NCBI RefSeq assembly: GCF_018122625.2
Contig: NZ_JAGQFT020000001.1
Location: 248,001 to 312,000, forward strand
Direction: 5' to 3'
DNA length: 64,000 nt
Source: Coralloluteibacterium stylophorae
Lineage (GTDB): Bacteria; Pseudomonadota; Gammaproteobacteria; Xanthomonadales; Xanthomonadaceae
Part shown: one piece after another, positions 1 to 54,855 of the stretch
Layout: each line of letters opens with the position of its first letter
Numbering within the stretch: the first letter of the stretch is position 1
The notes under the pieces: generated by a model
What the model was told of the DNA's origin: nothing
The model's database searches: none
The model's input: the letters and a program-made list of their open reading frames with translations, nothing else
Position numbers and translations under genes: made by a program

Positions 1-2
1 TG

Positions 3-1553
3 TCACTGCTGGCGCTGAATGGGCTTGAAGGGGGCGCGGCTGGTGTACGCAACATGCTGGGGGCGTTCGCGGCTGTCGGCCGCCTTACCTGTGTGCGCAG
101 CCTCCGTCCAGAAGCCCTCGCTGCGTACCAGGCGGATTGGGCTCGTATCGCTGGGAGCAGACGGAAGCCGGCCAAGGTGGACGCGTCGGTCCTAAAGCTG
201 ATGGAGAGCCGCGCGGGCGGCGCGGCGCGGGGCGACCCATTCGGCCAGCTGCTGGCGGGAGCACGCGAACTGCATGACCCGTTGGCGCTGTCGGCGCTCA
301 CGCTCGGCGACATCCTCTACAACGCGTACAGCCTGTCCCCCGGCGTGCTCGAGGCGGCGGACTTCTCCCGCGTCGAGGATCTCGAGGATCCGGTGGCATT
401 CGCGGCGTTCGCGCATGGGATCGAGTCGATGAGCCCCGACGCCCGGCTCGGTGCCTTCAGCAGTCTGAAAGGCTATGTCGCGGAGCGGGTAGTGGCGGCC
501 CGACTGGTCGAGCAGGGACACGTGGTCGAATTCCCCGGGACGGCCAACGAGGCGGGCTGGGATATCTCGGTGGACGGGGCGCTGTTCCAGATCAAGGACA
601 CGACGGACCTGTCCGGCCTGCAGCGCCATTTTGAACGGGGCTACGACTACCCCGTATTCGCCAATGGCGAACTCGCGTCTGAGCTTGCCTCGCGCGCCGG
701 CGAAGCCCTCCCCGAGTGGGCCGACAGGGTCCACTTCGTCGAGGGCTACAGCAATGAGATCGTCGAACATCTCACCCGATCCTCCCTCGAAGCGGGCGCC
801 GACATGCTGCATCCGGACGTGCCGCTGTTTGCGCTGCTGTTGAGCGGCGTCCGCAACCTCCAGCGCATGAACCGTGGAGAAGTCACCGGTAGCCAGGCGG
901 TACAGGAATTTTTTCTGGACGGCGGAACCCGCGCCGGCCTCGCTGTCGCCGGGAATTACATGGGAGCGGGCATCGGCCTCGTCGTGTTCGGCCCGGCTGG
1001 GGCGTTGGTGCTTGGTGCAGTGGTGCCGATCGTCAGCCAACTGCAGTCCGGCCGAGTGAGGGGAATGCTGGACCAGTGGGCGCAGGATGCAAGCTACCGC
1101 GCCTGGGCCGCGGCGGCGTGCGGTGCCCTGTCGGAGTTGGTGTCCCGGGCAGGATATCTGCTCAGGCGGAAGATCGGCCTGGTGCGATCCCGTCGGCCGC
1201 TCGAGGCGCAGGCAGTTGTGGTGCAGTACCTTCAATGGCGGGTAGACGATGAGCTGTGCTTTTTGCGGGAGGCCCACTGTCGGCTGAAGAGCATCAGTGA
1301 TGACACGGCTGAGCCGATCGAGCGCGTGGCTCAGCGCGTGCTTGTGTGGCTGAGCACGAGCACGCTGCACCCGTCGTCTTGCCAGCGCGAAGTCACGGCG
1401 CTCGGCACTATGTTTCGGCGCCGGCCTTCCACTGTCGACAGGGTTTCCGGCATCGCCGGCGAGACAGTGGAGGCGGCAAGCACAGGCATCAGGACCATCG
1501 TTCGCAGGTTCTCTGCCGGGATGGGTAGTAGCAGCGACAAGAAGAGAGGTTGA
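3..1553 (+). CDS. PD-(D/E)XK nuclease-like protein with glycine-rich membrane segment (5' truncated by window edge)
   Basis: The frame is open to the left edge (from base 3) and the first ATG (54) has no visible ribosome binding site, so the true start probably lies outside. The middle part (about residues 140-185 counted from the ATG) has a helix with AERVVAARLVEQG, then GWDI, then FQIKD. This E...D...QxK order is the arrangement of PD-(D/E)XK restriction-endonuclease-like folds. About residues 290-335 form a Gly/Ala-rich hydrophobic stretch (GNYMGAGIGLVVFGPAGA) like a glycine-zipper transmembrane hairpin, followed by a basic, helical C-terminus. The combination suggests a membrane-associated or membrane-acting nuclease, possibly a defence or conflict effector. 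The fold is inferred from motif spacing only and the substrate is unknown. Confidence 0.6.
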   Translation, partial: SLLALNGLEGGAAGVRNMLGAFAAVGRLTCVRSLRPEALAAYQADWARIAGSRRKPAKVDASVLKLMESRAGGAARGDPFGQLLAGARELHDPLALSALTLGDILYNAYSLSPGVLEAADFSRVEDLEDPVAFAAFAHGIESMSPDARLGAFSSLKGYVAERVVAARLVEQGHVVEFPGTANEAGWDISVDGALFQIKDTTDLSGLQRHFERGYDYPVFANGELASELASRAGEALPEWADRVHFVEGYSNEIVEHLTRSSLEAGADMLHPDVPLFALLLSGVRNLQRMNRGEVTGSQAVQEFFLDGGTRAGLAVAGNYMGAGIGLVVFGPAGALVLGAVVPIVSQLQSGRVRGMLDQWAQDASYRAWAAAACGALSELVSRAGYLLRRKIGLVRSRRPLEAQAVVVQYLQWRVDDELCFLREAHCRLKSISDDTAEPIERVAQRVLVWLSTSTLHPSSCQREVTALGTMFRRRPSTVDRVSGIAGETVEAASTGIRTIVRRFSAGMGSSSDKKRG

Positions 1554-1899
1554 TGGCCGCCATCAAGTTCGGGCTGCTTGGGTTGGCAAATTTGGAGGGC
1601 AGGCGCGGTTTACACAGCTAGGGATGCGGACATAGATGCAGCGGAAGAGTGGGAAATGGTGCTGGACGCCTCCGCCGATGCACGAGCCATCTCGATCCGC
1701 AGGAGTTCGCGATGCGGGTCGGCGACTGCTTCTGCTATCGCTCTCTGTGCCCCAATGACAGCGATGCGGATCCGTGGGTCTTCGACGACGATGGCGGGTA
1801 TACGCAGGTGGAGTGAGCCGACGACCGGGCCGCGGATGCTGCACCCTTCGTCGAAGATGGAGGTGCAGGAAACATGTCTTGTACGGAACGGGAGACAGC
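1554..1899. other. Gap with small ORF debris between the nuclease-like gene and the DUF429 gene
   Basis: An ATG at 1553 overlaps the preceding stop (TGATG) but the frame closes after 22 codons at 1621. A second short frame (ATG 1712 to stop 1816, 34 codons, rich in Cys and Asp) looks protein-like and stays in the frame that closes exactly at the DUF429 start (TTGA, 1900-1903). I recognise neither piece. They may be remnants of one or two small decayed genes. No RNA gene or clear promoter is visible. Confidence 0.35.
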
Positions 1900-2730
1900 T
1901 TGAAGCGGACCATCTCCGATGAAGTCTTTCAGGCATTGCGCCTCCGCGCAGTCGGCGATGAAAGTGCCGACGATGTGCTGCGCCGGATTCTCGGGCTGCC
2001 GCAGGCGGCGGCTTCTGCTGGCGGGCCACGCGGCTCCCTGGTGGGCGTCGATGGTGCGAAGAGCGGGTGGCTCGCCGTCTGGGCCACGGACACGCAGCTG
2101 GGGTTCGAGGTTCATGCCGACGTCGGGGCGCTTCGTGCCGCGCATGCCAATGCCGCGGTCATCGCCGTCGACGTACCCATCGGGCTGAGCGATGCCGGGC
2201 CGCGCACGGCAGATGTGCTTGCGCGGAAGTTCGTGGGTGGCGTGCGCGCATCGAGCATCTTCTCGTCCCCGGTCCGTGGCGTCCTCGGAGCCAGTTCGCA
2301 GGCGGAGGCATCGCGGCTGCATCGGGACATCGACACCCGGGGCTACGGCGCGCAGGCGTTCGCCATCCTCTCCAAGATCCGCGAGTGGGATGGCTGCCTT
2401 GCCGCGGACGCCGGTTTCGCAGCGCGCGTCCACGAAGTGCACCCGGAGGTCTGCTTCGCTGCATTGGCGGGAGGCAAGGGGCTGGTCGAGAGCAAGAAGA
2501 CGCCGGAGGGCGCAGCGCGGCGGCGTGCGCTCCTGCACGCGGAATTCGGCGATGCGGCAGTTTCCGATCTTCTGGCGCGGGTGCCGCGCCGACTTGCTGC
2601 TCCGGACGACGTTCTCGACGCGCTGGCTGCGTTGTGGAGCGCGAGGCGGATTGCTGTCGGCCAGCATGAGAGCCTTCCGAACCCACCCGAGGTGGATTCG
2701 ACGGGGCGCCGCAGAGCAATCCACTACTGA
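1900..2730 (+). CDS. DUF429 domain protein (predicted RNase H-like nuclease)
   Basis: The start chosen is the TTG at 1900, preceded by GGGAGA four bases upstream. The longer frame from 1774 adds only Arg/Gly-rich low-quality sequence. The 276-residue product begins with a short segment (KRTISDEVFQALRLRA, then DDVLRRILGL) resembling the N-terminal oligomerisation/ribbon-helix-helix segments of SeqA-like proteins. DUF429 hallmarks follow: GVDGAKSGW (about 49-57), AVDVPIGL, VHEVHPEVCFAAL and DVLDALAALWSA. DUF429 proteins are predicted RNase H-fold enzymes of unknown substrate. The N-terminal extension may supply dimerisation or DNA contact. It follows the nuclease-like gene on the same strand, but the debris between them makes an operon doubtful. 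Confidence 0.8.
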   Translation: MKRTISDEVFQALRLRAVGDESADDVLRRILGLPQAAASAGGPRGSLVGVDGAKSGWLAVWATDTQLGFEVHADVGALRAAHANAAVIAVDVPIGLSDAGPRTADVLARKFVGGVRASSIFSSPVRGVLGASSQAEASRLHRDIDTRGYGAQAFAILSKIREWDGCLAADAGFAARVHEVHPEVCFAALAGGKGLVESKKTPEGAARRRALLHAEFGDAAVSDLLARVPRRLAAPDDVLDALAALWSARRIAVGQHESLPNPPEVDSTGRRRAIHY

Positions 2731-2781
2731 TCGGTATCGCGGCCGTTGACGTGGCCGCTCAGGCGTAGCAGGCTCACCTCA

Positions 2782-2952
2782 CGGAGCCTCGAAACTCCTC
2801 ACACAGCGGTACCCACCTCCGTCAAACCGGTGGGTTTTTTGTGCCTGCATCCTTTGCAGACGCAACCGACGCGATGCCTGCGTCGGGAGGGCGGCTAATA
2901 CAACACCCGCAAGGGGAATACGCCCGCCGGCTGTGTGCGGTTTCGAGCCTCC
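2782..2952 (+). ncRNA. Candidate structured leader RNA upstream of the XAC0095-like gene
   Basis: Two imperfect complementary blocks bracket this stretch: one at about 2785-2807 (CTCGAAACTCCTCACACAGC) and one at about 2931-2950 (GCTGTGTGCGGTTTCGAG). They could close a long stem. Inside lie a terminator-like hairpin with a T run (2811-2840), a second stem with ACGCAACCGACGCGATGCCTGCGTC-type pairing at about 2861-2887, and a small CCCGCAAGGGG hairpin at about 2910. Phage-type C4 antisense RNA is one family worth testing. This is inference from base pairing only and no covariance evidence was available. Confidence 0.35.
2811..2840 (+). terminator. Rho-independent terminator-like hairpin
   Basis: ACCCACC (2811-2817) pairs perfectly with GGTGGGT (2829-2835) around an 11-base loop, followed directly by a run of six T. 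It lies 80 bases after the DUF429 stop, so it could end that transcript or act as an attenuator in the leader of the next gene. Confidence 0.65.
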
Positions 2953-3011
2953 CGACTTCCCGTCCGCCGCGTCGCGGTGGGCGGCCACTTCGATGGAGTG
3001 AGGAGGCTGCG

Positions 3012-3659
3012 ATGTCGACGTACGAGTTTGACGATCTGGGGATGCCCGGCTACTTCCTGCCGGAGGACAGCCAGCTGCGGCTGGCACAACTGCGCGACCA
3101 CATCGGATTCCTGGCGGGGCTGGCACGGCCGCGCGTGCCGGATGGGCGCCCGGAGGGGGCGCCGGAGATCGGCACGGGCGAGCTGGCGTTCTGCCTGGAG
3201 CTGTTGGCGGAACAGGTGGGGCGCGTGCTGGACGAGGTGTCCTGGCCGGCGGTGCGGGGCGATGGGATGGGCGTTGCGGGCGATGCTGGCCCGGATGGAC
3301 GCGAGGAGGCGGATGCTGCGCCTGCCGGGGGCTTCGGCTTCCGCGTGACCGTGGATCAGCTCGATGCGCTGGTGGAGCAGCTCCAGACGCTCAGCGCGCA
3401 TGGGGATGTGCTGGCTGCCGGGGTCAATCGCCAGTTGGAGGGGGCGACGCTCGCTACGCTCGGCGAGGCGGTCCACGACGCGGCGCAGGCGGTGCGCGGC
3501 GTGCTGCGTGAGGTGGAGGGGCAGTGGCTTGGTGACACGCGCGGGTTCGATTCGCGGGTTGAAGAGGGGCGGGCGGAGTACCGGGTCTGGGTTGGGTGGC
3601 CGGGTGCGCCTGCTGAGCCTGCTGAGCCTGCTGAGCCGGGGCGGCTTGTGGCTGCTTAG
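3012..3659 (+). CDS. XAC0095-like protein
   Basis: The ATG at 3012 has a perfect AGGAGG five bases upstream (3001-3006), which settles the start. The N-terminus (GYFLPEDSQLRLAQLRDH, residues 14-31) matches my recollection of the XAC0095 family, small proteins of unknown function found mainly in Xanthomonadaceae. At 215 residues this copy is longer than the usual short form. A second region (about 105-135, VTVDQLDALVEQLQTLSAHG) may be a degenerate second copy of the unit. The C-terminus carries a three-unit tandem repeat (PAEPAEPAEP, from a 9-bp DNA repeat near 3610-3636). No signal peptide or membrane segment is seen and the function is unknown. Confidence 0.6.
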   Translation: MSTYEFDDLGMPGYFLPEDSQLRLAQLRDHIGFLAGLARPRVPDGRPEGAPEIGTGELAFCLELLAEQVGRVLDEVSWPAVRGDGMGVAGDAGPDGREEADAAPAGGFGFRVTVDQLDALVEQLQTLSAHGDVLAAGVNRQLEGATLATLGEAVHDAAQAVRGVLREVEGQWLGDTRGFDSRVEEGRAEYRVWVGWPGAPAEPAEPAEPGRLVAA

Positions 3660-3664
3660 GGGGT

Positions 3665-4068
3665 GGAGGCTGCCGCTGCGCGGCATCCCCCCATCCCAGC
3701 CTTCCCCCTCAAGGGGGGAAAGGGGCCAAAAGCGCGGCGTGGCTCTTGGCCCCCTCTCCCGCGCAGCGGGGGAGGGGTGGGGTGGGGGCGCGGCGCAGCC
3801 GCGGGCTTTTCGCGTGTTGGAGGCGCCGGGCGCTGCGCGCCTCACCCCCATCCCAACCTTCCCCCGCAGGCGGGGGAAGGGGCTAACAGCCGCAAGAGGG
3901 GTAGGGGCTGAAAGCGCGGCGTGGCTCTTGGCCCCCTCTCCCGCGCAGCGGGGGAGGGCCGGGGTGGGGGCGCGGCGGAGCCGCGGGCTTCTTGCTATTG
4001 GAGGCGTCCGGTGCGCTGCGCGCCTCACCCCCATCCCACCTTCCCCCGCAGGCGGGGGAAGGGACTAG
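3665..4068 (+). repeat. Array of long intergenic palindromic repeats (type A), about three units
   Basis: Each complete unit is about 135 bp. It starts with a hairpin (CCCTCTCCCGC...GCGGGGGAGGG), then a long stem whose left arm is TGGGGTGGGGGCGCGGCGCAG and whose right arm is CTGCGCGCCTCACCCCCATCCC around a variable loop, and ends with a near-perfect hairpin (CCTTCCCCCGC...GCGGGGGAAGG). Here one right-half fragment is followed by two near-complete units. All copies have the same orientation. The same unit recurs at 6.0, 7.3, 10.3 and 21.6 kb, with a variant at 13.8 kb. Confidence 0.85.
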
Positions 4069-4155
4069 AGCGGGGCGGCGTGTGGTGTCTACGGGTGGTA
4101 TCCCGGTCAAGTCGTCCGCTGTTCGAGGACACAGGAATTGCGGGCTACGGAAGCC

Positions 4156-4266
4156 ATGCAAGGTCAAGACATCCTGCTTCTGCTCAAGCTCGTTCGCCTC
4201 GAGCTCGACGAGCGCCGTGTGCAGCCCGCCCGAGCACCGCTCGGCATCCCCGACGACGTGGCTTGA
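4156..4266 (+). pseudogene. Truncated gene remnant (36 codons) between repeat units
   Basis: The frame opens with MQGQDILLLLKLVRLELDE and stops at codon 37. It reads like the N-terminus of a small helical (winged-helix-like) protein of the kind I associate with xanthomonad toxin-antitoxin neighbourhoods, then ends abruptly where a degraded repeat fragment (CCCCCTCCCTCGTGCAGCGGGGAG, about 4267-4290) begins. I infer a gene cut short by repeat insertion or deletion. A genuine 36-residue protein cannot be excluded. Confidence 0.4.
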
Positions 4267-4308
4267 CCCCCTCCCTCGTGCAGCGGGGAGCGCAACGGGG
4301 CGGGACCG

Positions 4309-4345
4309 TTGACAAGTAACATAAATGCATCAAACTTGCATCGAA
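4309..4345 (+). promoter_or_regulatory. Probable promoter/operator of the Xre-RES toxin-antitoxin operon
   Basis: A TTGACA (4309-4314) stands in an AT-richer patch. Downstream are two nested inverted repeats, CAAGT...ACTTG (4313-4338) and ATGCA-N7-TGCAT (4325-4341). Dyads overlapping the promoter are what Xre-type antitoxins use for autoregulation. The exact -10 is unclear. Confidence 0.5.
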
Positions 4346-4364
4346 TCGTCGTCAGTGCCTGTGC

Positions 4365-4751
4365 ATGAACGCCATCCTCAACCACGACTACGCCACCCAG
4401 TTCCTGGAGGACCTGCGGGAGCCGGGGGCGGCGTACTTCTCGCCTTCCGCCTTCAGCAGCATCCTGCACATCAGCGCCCAGCGGCTGGCTGAGCTGGCGA
4501 AGGTGCATCGGACTACAACCACCCGCTCGCCCGACGCAGAGAAGCTGCAGGATTTCCTGCGCGGCGCCGCCACCATCCTGGCGATCGCGGTGGAGCTGAG
4601 CGGCGGCGACCGGCAGCGCGCCGTGTTCTGGTTCCGCAACGTTCCGCTGCTGGAACTGGACGGGCGGACGGCGGAGCAGCTCGTCGCCGACGGGGCGGCC
4701 GAGGGCGTGCGCGACTATCTGATCAACCTGTCGGCTGGCGCCACGGGATGA
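4365..4751 (+). CDS. Antitoxin of Xre-RES type II toxin-antitoxin pair (MbcA/ParS/Xre family)
   Basis: This 128-residue protein has the family layout. An N-terminal helical Xre-like region (about 20-60, with ISAQRLAELAKVHRTT as the likely recognition part) is followed by a C-terminal toxin-binding domain (about 60-120, AATILAIAVELSGGDRQRAVFWFRN and then LDGRTAEQLVADG). The latter is the MbcA/ParS/Xre antitoxin-C signature in which the helix after the LDGRTAxxLV motif plugs the toxin active site. Its stop overlaps the toxin start (ATGA, 4748-4751), giving translational coupling. A dyad-rich promoter lies just upstream. The family call is strong from motif and context. Confidence 0.88.
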   Translation: MNAILNHDYATQFLEDLREPGAAYFSPSAFSSILHISAQRLAELAKVHRTTTTRSPDAEKLQDFLRGAATILAIAVELSGGDRQRAVFWFRNVPLLELDGRTAEQLVADGAAEGVRDYLINLSAGATG

Positions 4752-5278
4752 TCGTCGCCACGGTCGGGCCGGAGGCGACCTATTACCGTGTGCTCACACC
4801 GAGCTGGGCGTTTCAGCCCAGGAGCGGCGCCGGCGCGGCGACAAAAGGCGGTCGCTTCAACCGCCCAGGCACGCATGCGGTGTACCTGTCGGCCGCGCCG
4901 GGAACCGCCATCGCCGAATACGGCCAGGCCGAGCGCTTGTTCTCGCCCGGCACGCTGGCCGGCTATCGGGTGACGCTTGCTCGCATCGTCGACTTCAGTG
5001 GCGGCTATTCACCACGCTGGGACGCGCTGTGGCGGGACTGGGACTGCGCGTGGAAGGACCTGTGGTTCCGTCAACGGATCGAGCCCCCGACTTGGGAGAT
5101 GGCCGACCTCGTGCTGACGTCGGGTGCTGCCGGGCTGGCATTTCCATCGACGAAGCAGCCAAGCGGCGAAAACCTGGTGATCTATCCCGACGTACTGTCA
5201 GTCGGCGATGCATTCGAGGTGCACGATCCCGAAGGGCTGCTGCCGCGCGACCGGGCATCCTGGCACGACCAGGCGTAA
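4748..5278 (+). CDS. RES domain toxin (NAD+-degrading, Xre-RES system)
   Basis: This 176-residue RES-domain protein has the characteristic residues in order: Arg in YYRV (about 14), the GGRFN motif (35-38 region, Arg36), a Tyr in AVYLS (46) and Glu in IAEYG (57). A C-terminal NLVIYPDV strand ends the fold. RES toxins characterised elsewhere cleave or phosphorolyse NAD+ and arrest growth when the antitoxin is lost. The gene overlaps the antitoxin by 4 bp. Nothing suggests inactivation, so the pair looks intact. Confidence 0.9.
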   Translation: MIVATVGPEATYYRVLTPSWAFQPRSGAGAATKGGRFNRPGTHAVYLSAAPGTAIAEYGQAERLFSPGTLAGYRVTLARIVDFSGGYSPRWDALWRDWDCAWKDLWFRQRIEPPTWEMADLVLTSGAAGLAFPSTKQPSGENLVIYPDVLSVGDAFEVHDPEGLLPRDRASWHDQA

Positions 5279-49540: not shown

Positions 49541-50824
49541 TCACGCCGCCTGGCCGGACTCCGGATGCCGGACCTGGCCGTTGCCGCGCACCACCCAACG
49601 CTCGATGGTCAGCGATTCCAGGCCCATCGGGCCATAGGCGTGCAGGCGCGTGGTGGAGATGCCGATCTCCGCGCCGAGGCCGAGCTGGCCGCCGTCGTTG
49701 AAGCGCGAGGAGGCGTTGACCATCACCGCGGAACTCCGCACCGCGGCGACGAAGCCTGCGGCCGCGGCGTCGTCGCGCGTGCAGATGACTTCGGTGTGGT
49801 CGGAGGTGTGCCGCTGGATGTGGGCGACGGCCGCGTCCAGCGAATCGACCACGCGCACGGCGAGGATCGGCGCGAGGTACTCGGCGTCGTAGTCGTCGTC
49901 GGTGGCCGCCTTCGCCTGGGGGAACAGGGCTCGCGTACGCTCGCAGCCGCGGATCTCCGCGCCGCGCTCGACCAGCACCTGCAGCGCGCCGGGCAACCAG
50001 TCGGGCGCGATGTCGGCATGCACCAGCAGCGTCTCCAGCGCGTTGCACACGCCCGGCCGCGACAGCTTGCCGTCCACCGCCAGCCGCGTCGCCAGGAGCG
50101 GATCCGCGGCCGCATCCACGTACAGGTGGCACACGCCCTTGTAGTGCTTGATCACCGGCACGCGCGCGTTCTCCGCGACGAAGCGGATCAGGCGCTCGCC
50201 GCCGCGCGGGATGGCCAGGTCCACCAGGTCGGTGAGCTGCAGCAGTTCCAGCACGTGTTCGCGCGCGGTGTCCTCGACCAGCGCCACGGCCTCGGCCGGC
50301 AGGCCGAACCGCGCCAGCGCGGAATGCAGGCAGCGGGCGATGGCGATGTTGCTCTCGCGCGCCTCGGAGCCGCCGCGCAGCAGCACGGCGTTGCCGGCGC
50401 GCAGGCACAGCGCGGCCGCATCCGCGGTCACGTTGGGCCGCGCCTCGTAGATCATCGCGATCAGGCCCAGCGGGATGCGCACCTTCTCCACGGTCATGCC
50501 GTTGGGATGGGTCTCGCTGCGGGTGACCTGGCCGACCGGGTCGGGCAGGGCGGCGATCTCGCCGATCGCCTGCACGATGCCGTCCAGGCGCGCGTCGTCC
50601 AGCGCCAGGCGGTCGAGCATGGCCCCGGTGGTGCCGGCCTCACGTGCGCGCTGCATGTCGCGCGCATTGGCCTCGAGGATGCCGGCGCGGCCGGCAGCGA
50701 CGGATTCCGCCATGGCCTCGAGCAGCGCCGCGCGGCGCCCGGCATCGAGCGCGGCGATGGCGAGCGAGGCGGCGCGGGCGCGGGTGGCGAGGCCGCGGAT
50801 GTAGCTGGGGGTGTCTGCGGACAT
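49541..50824 (-). CDS. proA: Glutamate-5-semialdehyde dehydrogenase (gamma-glutamyl phosphate reductase)
   Basis: A 427-residue ProA of normal length. An N-terminal helical region leads to [39 protein letters not shown] (cofactor site), [12 protein letters not shown] with the catalytic Cys, [50 protein letters not shown] and [20 protein letters not shown]. This is the second step of proline synthesis, NADPH-dependent. It lies 22 bp downstream of proB in a proBA operon. Confidence 0.97.
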
Positions 50825-50846: not shown

Positions 50847-52001
50847 TCAGGCGGCGCGGTGCATCAGCACCAGGTCGTCGCGGCGGACCACCGCATGGCC
50901 ATTGTGGAAGCCGAGCACGGTCTCGATCTCCTGGCTGTGCCGGCCGGCGATGCGCTGCAGGTCGCTGGCGTGGTACTGCACGAGGCCCCGGCCGACGCGG
51001 CGGTCGTCCAGCCCCACCAGGTCGACCACGGCGCGGCTGCTGAAATCGCCCTCCACCGCGACCACGCCGCCCGGCAGCAGCGAAGCGCCGCGCTCGCGGA
51101 TCGCACGGCAGGCGCCCTCGTCGATGCGCAGGCGGCCGCGGCAGCCGGGCTGGTGCTGCAGCCACAGCTTGCGCGCCAGCAGGCGCTCGCCGTGGGCGGG
51201 GATCAGCGTACCGTGCAGGCGGTCGGCGCCGAGGGCCTCGAGCGCACGTGCGTCGTGGCCGCAGAAGAGCGCGGTGTCGATGCCGGCCGAGGCCGCCTTG
51301 CCCGCCGCCTCCAGCTTGGTGGCCATGCCGCCGGTGCCCAGGCGGCCGGCACCGCCGGCAGTCATGCGCATGATCTCCGGGGTGATCGCCTCCACGCGCG
51401 GCAGCGGACGTGCCGACGGGTCGCGCGTGGGATGGCCGGTGTAGAGACCGTGGGTGTCGGTGGCGATGAACAGCATGTCGGCATCGACCAGCGCGGCCAC
51501 CGCCGCCGCCAGGTTGTCGTTGTCGCCCAGCTTGAGCTCGTCGACGGCCACGGTGTCGTTCTCGTTGACGATGGGCAGCGCACCGCTGCGCAGCAGTTCC
51601 TGCAGGGTGGCCTGGGCGTTGAGGTAGCGACGGCGGTTGCGCATGTCGTCGTGGCTCAGCAGGACCTGCGCGACCGGCTGTTCGACCAGGCCCTGCCAGA
51701 GCGCCAGCATCGGCGTCTGTCCCAGCGAGGCCAGCGCCTGCCGCTGGACCAGGCTGCCGCGCCGGCGCGCCATGAGCCCGCGTCCGGCCGCCACCGCGCC
51801 CGAGGACACCAGCAGCACCTCGCGGCCCTGCGCCCGGAACCGCGCGATCAACGCCGCCAGCGCAGCGGCATTGTGCGTGCCCAGCGCGCCGCGGCCATCG
51901 GTCAGCAGGCTGCTGCCCACCTTGATCACGGCCCGCCGCCAGGGCGCCAGCGTCTGGGCCGGGAACGGGTGGGGCGCGGTGGGGACGGCAGAAGCGGACA
52001 T
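50847..52001 (-). CDS. proB: Glutamate 5-kinase
   Basis: A 384-residue ProB: an amino-acid kinase domain ([74 protein letters not shown]) plus a C-terminal PUA domain (from about 285, [25 protein letters not shown]). It makes gamma-glutamyl phosphate and is normally inhibited by proline. It is first in proBA, transcribed away from the dif region. Confidence 0.97.
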
Positions 52002-52683
52002 CGACTGGTTCCTTTTGTTGCGGAGACGAGCGCGCACGGAACGTGCGGACGCGGACCGGCCTGCGGTGCCCGGAGGAGTCCGGTACGCAAACGATCGGCG
52101 AAAGGGGAAGCAGATCAGCAGCGCAGTGCGGCGCGAGAGCAGGCTCGATCGCGCGCCTGGTTTTTGGGGGCCGAGGACCTGCTCTGAGGCGGGAGCGGAA
52201 GTCGCAGGTCGGCTCCGGAGGCTGCACATCCTAGCAAATCGACGCCTGTCACCCAAATCCGGACCGGCACGATGAACGTAGTTGGATGATTTTTGGTGGA
52301 TTTACCGATGTTTCAGAGGCGCGCCACGCGGCAATGCTGCAGCGGGTCTGCCGGCGAGCGGGTGCCCCAGGCGCGCGGGCCGCTGCGGCACGAAACAGCG
52401 CAAAGGAGACGCGCGCCCGCAGCCGGCGCGAACGGCCCGGCGAGTCGGCGGCACCTTCAGCTCGCTGATGTCGACGCCGTCCAGGGCGTGTCCGCCGACA
52501 TGCGCCGCGTCACCAGGTCGTGGACGAAGTGCCCAGCACTCGTCGTGCGGCGCCGGGAGCCGACCGCTGCCGTGCCCGGCAACACCATAAGCGTGTGTTA
52601 TCACGGGTCTCTGTCACTAGGAGACCTCTCAACGACGTGCCAACGCGCTGATTTCTAGGCCATTGTGGAGGATGTCGCCAGCA
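52002..52683. other. Gene-poor terminus region upstream of proBA
   Basis: No convincing gene. Short frames (for example 52302-52604 minus, 52293-52658 plus) have Arg/Pro-rich noise composition or lack starts. Base composition shifts to AT-rich from about 52590. GGTCTC (52606-52611) and GAGACC (52621-52626) form an inverted repeat. The proBA promoter must lie near 52010-52200 but is not obvious. Confidence 0.5.
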
Positions 52684-52711
52684 TCTTTACATAATATACA
52701 TTATGCGAACT
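52684..52711 (-). other. dif: Chromosomal dif site (XerC/XerD recombination site)
   Basis: Read on the minus strand the 28 bp are: left arm AGTTCGCATAA, centre TGTATA, right arm TTATGTAAAGA. From memory the E. coli site has arms GGTGCGCATAA and TTATGTTAAAT with the same centre. The left arm thus differs at 2 positions, the centre at none and the right arm at 3. It lies in an AT-rich, gene-free spot as expected. XerCD-FtsK resolve chromosome dimers here, and filamentous phages of xanthomonads integrate at such sites. Confidence 0.88.
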
Positions 52712-52761
52712 AGTGGAAGCTGGCTGCATCGCGTGCGATCTAAAGTCGCCAGCAAAGAATG

Positions 52762-52778
52762 ACGTTACATAGTAACGT
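52762..52778. promoter_or_regulatory. Perfect dyad ACGTTAC-ATA-GTAACGT
   Basis: Seven-base arms around a 3-base spacer, 51 bp from dif and about 165 bp before the ester hydrolase start. The geometry (GTTAC-N3-GTAAC) is operator-like and resembles, without matching, Zur boxes (GTTAT-N3-ATAAC). The binding protein is unknown. Confidence 0.4.
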
Positions 52779-52941
52779 AGCTGCCGGCACCCTACCCGGG
52801 CGTGTCGGCTGTCGACGCAGGCGGGGCCACCACGGGCTCCTGGGGCGATCCATGACCCCTCGCGCTGGATTGCCGGGCGCCCGGCCCGCGCACGAGCCGC
52901 TCGTCCACCGCCATGCATCGCCAGCCACAGGGGTCACCACA

Positions 52942-54855
52942 ATGAGATGTCTTCGGATCGTCGTCGCTGCCGTCGCGGCAGGCCTTGCAGCATCGGTTGC
53001 GGCGCAGGGGCCCGCCCGCGTCACGCCGATGACGCCGGACGTGGTCGACAGCTACGAGCAGATCCTGCCCTCCGCCGACTACATCCGGCGCGAGAGCATG
53101 GTGCCGATGCGCGACGGCACGAAGCTGTTCACGGTCGTGCTGATGAAGAAGGGCACGGCCGATGCCCCGATCCTGCTCTCGCGCACGCCCTACAACGCGA
53201 GCGGCCAGACCGGACGCGAGCACAGCCAGCACCTGGTCGACGTGCTCGAGGTCATGGATGCGGAGTTCGTCGAGGACGGCTACATCCGCGTCTACCAGGA
53301 CATCCGCGGCATGCACCGGTCGGAGGGCGAGTGGATCCTCAACCGCCCGCTCGCCGGGCCCTTGAACGACACCGGGATCGACGAGTCGACGGATGCGTAC
53401 GACACCATCGAGTGGCTCGTGCGGAACACGCCGGAAGCCAACGGCAACGTCGGCGTGATCGGCTCGAGCTACCTCGGCTTCACCGCCCTGATGACGCTGA
53501 TCGATCCGCATCCCGCGCTGAAGGCGGTGATCGCGCAGAGCCCGATGGTCGATGGCTGGATGGGCGACGACTGGTTCCACAACGGCGCCTTCCGCATCAG
53601 CTCGCTCGGTTTCCCGCTGAGCCAGGGGTTCAACAAGGGCAACGGAGGCGGCGAGTTCCCGGTCGGCGGCGGCGACGACTACACGCGCTACCTGGAAGCC
53701 GGATCGGTCGGCGATTTCGTGGCGCAGGTCGGCGCCGGGCATGTGCCGGGCATCCGCAAGTTCCTGGAGAATCCGGCCTACACCGAGTTCTGGTCCCTGC
53801 AGGCGGTCGACAGGTGGCTGGCGGCGCGGCCGCATACGGTGCCGACGATGCTGGTGGTCGGGCAGTGGGACCAGGAAGACAGCTACGGCGCGCCGGCGGT
53901 GTATCGCGCGCTGGAGCCGAAGGACACCAACAACGACCGCGTGTCCCTGGTGATCGGCCCATGGCGCCATTCCGGCTTCAACCACTACGGCTACGATCTC
54001 GGTGCGCTCACCTTCACCGGCGACACCGCGCACGAATGGCGGGTGAAGTACGCCAAGCCGTTCTTCGATCACTGGCTCAGGAGCGGTCCTGATCCGGAGA
54101 CGCCGCCGGTGCTCACCTACGCCACCGGCGCCAACCGGTGGAACATCTCGCAGCGCTGGCCGGTCGGATCGCCGAGGCCGCTCTACCTGGCCGACGGGGG
54201 CGTGGCCACGTTCGCGAAGCCGCAGACCCGCGGACACGAGGACTACATCAGCGACCCGGCAAAGCCGGTCCCGTTCCTGCCGCGGCCGATCGACATGGGC
54301 GACCCGACGCAATGGAAGCCGTGGCTGGTGCACGACCAGCGGTTCGCGAGCGGACGCCCCGACGTGGCCGTGTGGACGAGTGCGCCGCTCGACGAGGCCG
54401 TGCACATCATGGGCGCGCCCGAGGTGCAGCTGTTCGCGGCCACCACGGGGACCGACAGCGACTGGGTGGTCAAGCTCATCGACGTCTACCCCAACGACGT
54501 TCCCGAGGATGCCTCGCAGGGGGCGAAGCCCTCGATGGCGGGATTCGAGCTGCCCATCGGCATCGAGATCTTCCGCGGACGCTACCGCCAGAGCTTCGCG
54601 CAGCCTGCGCCGCTGGAGCCCGGCAAGGTCGAGCGCTACAGCTGGACGCTGCCCAACGTCGACCACGTGTTCCTGCCCGGCCACCGGATCATGGTGCAGG
54701 TGCAGTCGACGCTGTTCCCGCTGTACGACCGCAACCCGCAGTCCTATGTCGAGAACATCATGTATGCGAAGCCGGGCGACTACCGCGCGGCGACGCAGAG
54801 CATCTGGTTCGGAGGCGACAGGGCCAGCGCCGTGGTGTTGCCGGTGGCGGAATGA
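52942..54855 (+). CDS. Alpha-amino acid ester hydrolase (CocE/NonD family, periplasmic)
   Basis: A 637-residue exported alpha/beta hydrolase with signal peptide (VVAAVAAGLAASVAAQG). The nucleophile elbow is GSSYLGF (Ser176), with Asp310 and His343 (GPWRHSGFNHYG) completing the triad and Asp210, Glu312, Asp313 forming an acidic cluster. From memory X. citri AEH has Ser174, Asp307, His340 and the cluster Asp208, Glu309, Asp310, so all positions correspond with a shift of 2-3. The C-terminal jelly roll ends with VDHVFLPGHRIMVQVQST. It hydrolyses or transfers alpha-amino acyl groups, including beta-lactam side chains. The natural role is unknown. Confidence 0.92.
   Translation: MRCLRIVVAAVAAGLAASVAAQGPARVTPMTPDVVDSYEQILPSADYIRRESMVPMRDGTKLFTVVLMKKGTADAPILLSRTPYNASGQTGREHSQHLVDVLEVMDAEFVEDGYIRVYQDIRGMHRSEGEWILNRPLAGPLNDTGIDESTDAYDTIEWLVRNTPEANGNVGVIGSSYLGFTALMTLIDPHPALKAVIAQSPMVDGWMGDDWFHNGAFRISSLGFPLSQGFNKGNGGGEFPVGGGDDYTRYLEAGSVGDFVAQVGAGHVPGIRKFLENPAYTEFWSLQAVDRWLAARPHTVPTMLVVGQWDQEDSYGAPAVYRALEPKDTNNDRVSLVIGPWRHSGFNHYGYDLGALTFTGDTAHEWRVKYAKPFFDHWLRSGPDPETPPVLTYATGANRWNISQRWPVGSPRPLYLADGGVATFAKPQTRGHEDYISDPAKPVPFLPRPIDMGDPTQWKPWLVHDQRFASGRPDVAVWTSAPLDEAVHIMGAPEVQLFAATTGTDSDWVVKLIDVYPNDVPEDASQGAKPSMAGFELPIGIEIFRGRYRQSFAQPAPLEPGKVERYSWTLPNVDHVFLPGHRIMVQVQSTLFPLYDRNPQSYVENIMYAKPGDYRAATQSIWFGGDRASAVVLPVAE

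Follow-up and report, generated by a model that had tools for sequence, protein, structure and literature searches.

A textbook-type dif site on the Coralloluteibacterium stylophorae chromosome, at the convergence of KOPS-type octamers

The described systems closest to the locus reported here are the dif site of Xanthomonas campestris pv. campestris ATCC 33913 (PMC2731167), the Xanthomonas dif at which the filamentous phage XacF1 integrates via host XerC/D (PMC4076744), and the KOPS octamers of Escherichia coli and Pseudomonas aeruginosa, which are oriented towards dif (PMC2680272, PMC6199493). What dif marks on a chromosome has also been considered. According to one report, segregation, not replication, ends at dif in P. 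aeruginosa PAO1-UW, where the GC switch lies within 15 kb of dif and 682 kb from the replication terminus; across the 2,027 chromosomes surveyed there, the mean distance of the GC switch is 13 kb to dif and 71 kb to the expected replication terminus (PMC6199493). Kono et al. suggest a replication termination site other than dif (PMC3025954).

Here we describe a site in a 64,000-nucleotide stretch of the C. stylophorae genome (the window, equal to contig C1:248001-312000 and numbered from its first letter) that we regard as virtually certain to be the chromosome's dif. A preliminary description had placed dif at window 52684-52711, and this identification is borne out by the sequence, by its occurrence as a single copy, by a switch in KOPS orientation around it, and by genes that encode XerC, XerD and the gamma domain of FtsK. 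The 28 bp read AGTTCGCATAATGTATATTATGTAAAGA on the minus strand, or AGTTCGCATAA-TGTATA-TTATGTAAAGA: an XerC-type arm, AGTTCGCATAA (52701-52711), assigned by analogy with published dif sites; a central hexamer, TGTATA (52695-52700), which from the known dif layout is the predicted point of strand exchange; and a putative XerD-type arm, TTATGTAAAGA (52684-52694), placed on the same grounds. The site thus has the layout of an XerCD dif, with two 11-bp arms in partial dyad symmetry around a 6-bp centre and a total length of 28 bp. The dif of E. coli K-12 shares the core CGCATAATGTATATTATGT and the two-arm layout with a 6-bp centre, and differs in the outer bases of both arms. Compared with the published dif of X. 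campestris ATCC 33913 (PMC2731167), 25 of the 28 positions are identical, the whole TTCGCATAATGTATATTATGT core included; the three differing bases are XerC arm position 2 (G for T) and two in the outer XerD arm (AAA for CAG). The earlier statement that the minus strand keeps TGTATA and most of both arms was right as to location and strand, and 'most' understates the match.

The site is intergenic: proB, with a putative start near 52001, lies on one side and an S15-type hydrolase gene, at 52942, on the other. The surrounding gap, previously called AT-rich and gene-free, is indeed gene-poor, as the three ORFs of 100-121 aa tested there have no Pfam match at E <=0.1, but as a whole it is not very AT-rich: its GC content is 65% against 72% for the window, with 53% for 52560-52790 and 25% for the 28-mer. 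To the left are proB and proA, these two on the minus strand (amino acid kinase plus PUA; aldehyde dehydrogenase family) and named from Pfam matches and position, as well as genes for a pyridine nucleotide-disulphide reductase and a histidine kinase; to the right, the plus-strand S15-type hydrolase gene is accompanied by genes for a CobW-type GTPase and a TonB-dependent receptor. Since dif anchors the map, genes on either side of 52.7 kb belong to opposite chromosome arms. When six neighbour proteins were searched by tblastn (E <=1e-5) within 10 kb on each side of dif in 20 of the 62 matching same-family relatives, none was found, while all six queries were recovered from the window as a positive control; gene order near dif is therefore not conserved with those 20 relatives. 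Their flanks (30 nt left, 70 nt right) likewise show no general alignment by eye, and what is visibly shared is dif alone. A palindrome, ACGTTAC-ATA-GTAACGT, lies 51 bp to the right of dif at window 52762-52778, upstream of the S15-type hydrolase gene, with one match in the window and none in 100 shuffles (<=2 mismatches). It is possibly an operator or terminator-like stem; as a dif accessory site it was set aside, because visual inspection of the 20 relatives did not reveal it in their 70-nt right flanks.

The host encodes the proteins expected to act at an XerCD dif. Judging best matches against curated cut-offs, we find XerC on contig C14 (338 bits, cut-off 335.15), XerD on contig C7 (334.3 bits, cut-off 329.6) and one FtsK gamma domain at C1:446958-447143 (100.6 bits, cut-off 30.6); C13 and C15 give weaker matches that stay below the cut-offs and probably represent other tyrosine recombinases. 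From known systems we infer that XerCD would bind the site, exchange strands there and resolve chromosome dimers. In such a scheme, recombination between sister chromosomes would make a dimer, and FtsK at the division septum would load on KOPS (GGGNAGGG, here mostly GGGCAGGG) and pump DNA from both sides until the two copies of dif meet. The FtsK gamma domain would then activate XerD, and XerD together with XerC would exchange strands around the TGTATA centre, so resolving the dimer.

The strongest evidence for dif, and one that is independent of the motif, is the convergence of KOPS-type octamers at the site, which we analysed together with GC skew on contig C1 (559,068 bases of a 4.0-Mb assembly in 29 contigs). 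On this contig 141 of the 162 GGGNAGGG octamers are oriented towards dif, against a maximum of 113 in 2000 strand shuffles, and for GGGCAGGG the figure is 82 of 87, against a maximum of 64 in as many shuffles. The best strand switch of GGGNAGGG, a single one on C1, falls within the 2.2 kb of C1:298543-300790, with dif (300686) inside. Its borders are a last left octamer, GGGCAGGG, on the plus strand at window 50543-50550 (C1:298543), which points right to dif, and a first right octamer, GGGTAGGG, on the minus strand at window 52790-52797 (C1:300790), which points left to dif. In the 400 kb around the site, GGGCAGGG has the top polarity score at dif among 8-mers with at least 30 copies (z 7.3). 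Shifting the assumed switch point away from dif by 50-kb steps makes the GGGCAGGG count fall steadily in either direction. Among 56 letter permutations of GGGCAGGG in the 400 kb, only four exceed its fraction, all of them with no more than 1-3 copies; the median fraction of 0.69 among these permutations reflects a general G excess of the strands. The sharpness of the switch means that motif polarity can locate dif on one draft contig far more precisely than GC skew.

The octamer GGGNAGGG and its orientation to dif are the same here as in E. coli and P. aeruginosa (PMC2680272, PMC6199493), and what differs is the distribution among variants. On contig C1, GGGCAGGG points to dif in 82 of 87 cases, compared with 28 of 36 for GGGAAGGG, 24 of 32 for GGGGAGGG and 7 of 7 for GGGTAGGG, or 59 of 75 for these three other GGGNAGGG variants pooled. 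We tentatively raise, while thinking it rather unlikely, that the FtsK gamma domain of this lineage may prefer GGGCAGGG to the remaining GGGNAGGG octamers, so that KOPS would have been sharpened in a lineage-specific way; the 7 of 7 for GGGTAGGG does not fit the view that C is strictly preferred at the wobble position.

GC skew tells a less precise story. Inside the window alone it is too noisy for placing a switch, so we used contig C1 instead, first over 400 kb and then whole. Mean skew on C1 is +0.021 to the left of dif and weakly negative (-0.008) to the right, where one 50-kb bin (C1 450-500 kb) is slightly positive. Cumulative skew has its maximum at C1:335139, 34.4 kb to the right of dif (4593 versus 4485 at dif), and is nearly flat between about C1:260,000 and 340,000, a plateau that puts the 34 kb offset within noise. 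Skew thus agrees with the position of dif only coarsely: the sign changes around dif, but the preliminary description had named the lack of a skew switch within a few kb as grounds for refutation, and read literally, by the cumulative maximum, that condition applies, while KOPS switch exactly at the site. Its further claim that dif fixes the replication geometry survives for the end point of segregation, which the KOPS switch locates, and only roughly for the replichore junction. In a strict sense the claim was too strong, because of the distance of the skew maximum and the published separation between dif and terminus; the site is a good marker of where segregation ends and a rough one of where replication does. 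It may indeed be, and we give this a little less than even weight, that the site is dif and that replication usually terminates at another place, such as the skew maximum tens of kb further right, so that dif would set segregation geometry only. The 34.4 kb between maximum and dif and the precedent of P. aeruginosa PAO1-UW, where segregation but not replication is reported to end at dif (PMC6199493), argue for this, and the plateau, on which such an offset lies inside the noise, argues against it. This reading is compatible with the identity of the site as dif and touches only the wording of the earlier claim. Separately, window 1-5000 stands out from the remainder of the window by a lower GC content (0.65-0.71) and a strong positive skew of about +0.10 to +0.13, and is a possible foreign segment.

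As dif, the site is also the expected insertion point for a filamentous phage that uses dif. The Zot protein of filamentous phages is a virion-assembly ATPase, despite its family name. A Zot match is present in 11 of the 69 relatives searched (the C. stylophorae genome itself not counted), and in nine of these 11 it lies <=3.4 kb from a dif-like site; the remaining two are weak matches, one on a contig other than that of dif (G083) and one in a genome where no dif was found (G023). Zot is on the XerC side and on the strand of dif in six of the nine (G076, G006, G003, G040, G016, G008), and on the XerD side and the strand opposite dif in three (G094, G036, G005). The exact 25-mer also occurs in nine IMG/VR contigs or pieces. 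In two of them, L082 and L085, the site is repeated in the same orientation at a distance of 5.9 and 5.5 kb, with TGTATATTATGTAAA in common and a different XerC arm, and L087 has a second copy of this type 7.6 kb away. The second copy in L083 (525 and 8686), unlike those in L082, L085 and L087, retains TTCGCATAATGTATA (XerC arm plus centre) and differs in the XerD arm. The other five contigs show no convincing second dif-like copy. In L082, the contig on which the Zot search was run, the segment between the copies encodes a Zot-family protein and a G2P-type replication protein. In relatives, then, dif appears to serve as a filamentous-phage attachment site. Compared with the attB of XacF1 (as cited there, also of Cf1c and phiLf), the printed 15-bp attP core TATACATTATGCGAA lies inside the window site on the plus strand (PMC4076744). 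The difference is that no Zot-bearing filamentous prophage was found in C. stylophorae: Zot has no match anywhere in the genome, and there is one dif only, where an occupied site would show inovirus genes between two dif-like copies. The site therefore looks unoccupied, and its description as a target of XerCD-dependent phages is supported for the relatives, with no Zot-bearing phage seen in this genome.

Copy number bears on whether the site could be something other than dif. With <=3 mismatches allowed, the 18-base core GCATAATGTATATTATGT occurs once in the window and never in 100 dinucleotide shuffles. The 24-mer TTCGCATAATGTATATTATGTAAA, at C1:300686-300709, is matched once in the genome with 0 mismatches and has no further match at <=3 (4,002,885 bases, 29 contigs), and a reversed 24-mer used as a control has none in the genome. 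A looser, arms-only pattern finds dif again, together with its near-palindromic complement, and adds a single match with 3 mismatches, CGCATAGGTCCGGGTATGAGAA on C16, which we rejected as a second dif, its centre and second arm being unlike dif. A relaxed XerC arm pattern gives no second att-like copy in the window besides dif itself. The expectation of one copy per chromosome thus holds in this draft genome.

These results weigh on the idea that the site is an attL or attR remnant of a Xer-dependent mobile element, an inovirus or other IMEX, with the true dif elsewhere. The proximity of Zot to dif in nine of the 11 Zot-bearing relatives speaks for it, as do the nine IMG/VR contigs with the exact 25-mer, whose second copies diverge in the XerC arm in three cases (L082, L085, L087) and in the XerD arm in one (L083). 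Against it, C. stylophorae has no Zot match and no second dif-like copy in window or genome, both arms of the site are canonical, and KOPS converge on 52684-52711 itself, and we consider a remnant very improbable; even as an attachment copy, a site whose core is intact could presumably still act as dif. That a dif-like sequence should have arisen by chance in a GC-rich genome has nothing in its favour and a probability we treat as negligible, given no matches in 100 shuffles (<=3 mismatches), none for the reversed control and a KOPS switch at the same place.

The site is thus best read as dif, and it is one of many of its kind. Like sites (<=3 mismatches) are found in 99 of 118 relatives, a count that leaves out the window's own genome, with 62 of 70 in the same family and 37 of 48 in the rest of the order. 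Exactly one copy is present in 97 of the 99, the exceptions being G075 (2) and G095 (3). Among the 19 relatives with no match to the pattern at <=3 mismatches, G005 has a more divergent dif-like site near its Zot gene, so divergence accounts for at least one of the misses. The central hexamer is variable in the family (TGTATA, TGCATA, TGCCTA, TGAATA, TACATA and others) while both arms are well kept, and this variation could restrict which phage attP can recombine. The exact 24-mer occurs in at least 118 stretches, and among the matches listed, with taxa taken from 80 of these, are Xanthomonas, Stenotrophomonas, Luteimonas, Pseudoxanthomonas, Rhodanobacter and Dyella genomes. The same listed matches include the distant taxa Lactobacillus and Erysipelothrix, so the sequence alone is widespread and not specific to Xanthomonadaceae.

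Overall, nothing at this locus departs from the known biology of XerCD, dif and KOPS, apart from one minor matter, a possible preference for C at the KOPS wobble position. For dif biology, it is one more regular example of the textbook type rather than something new.
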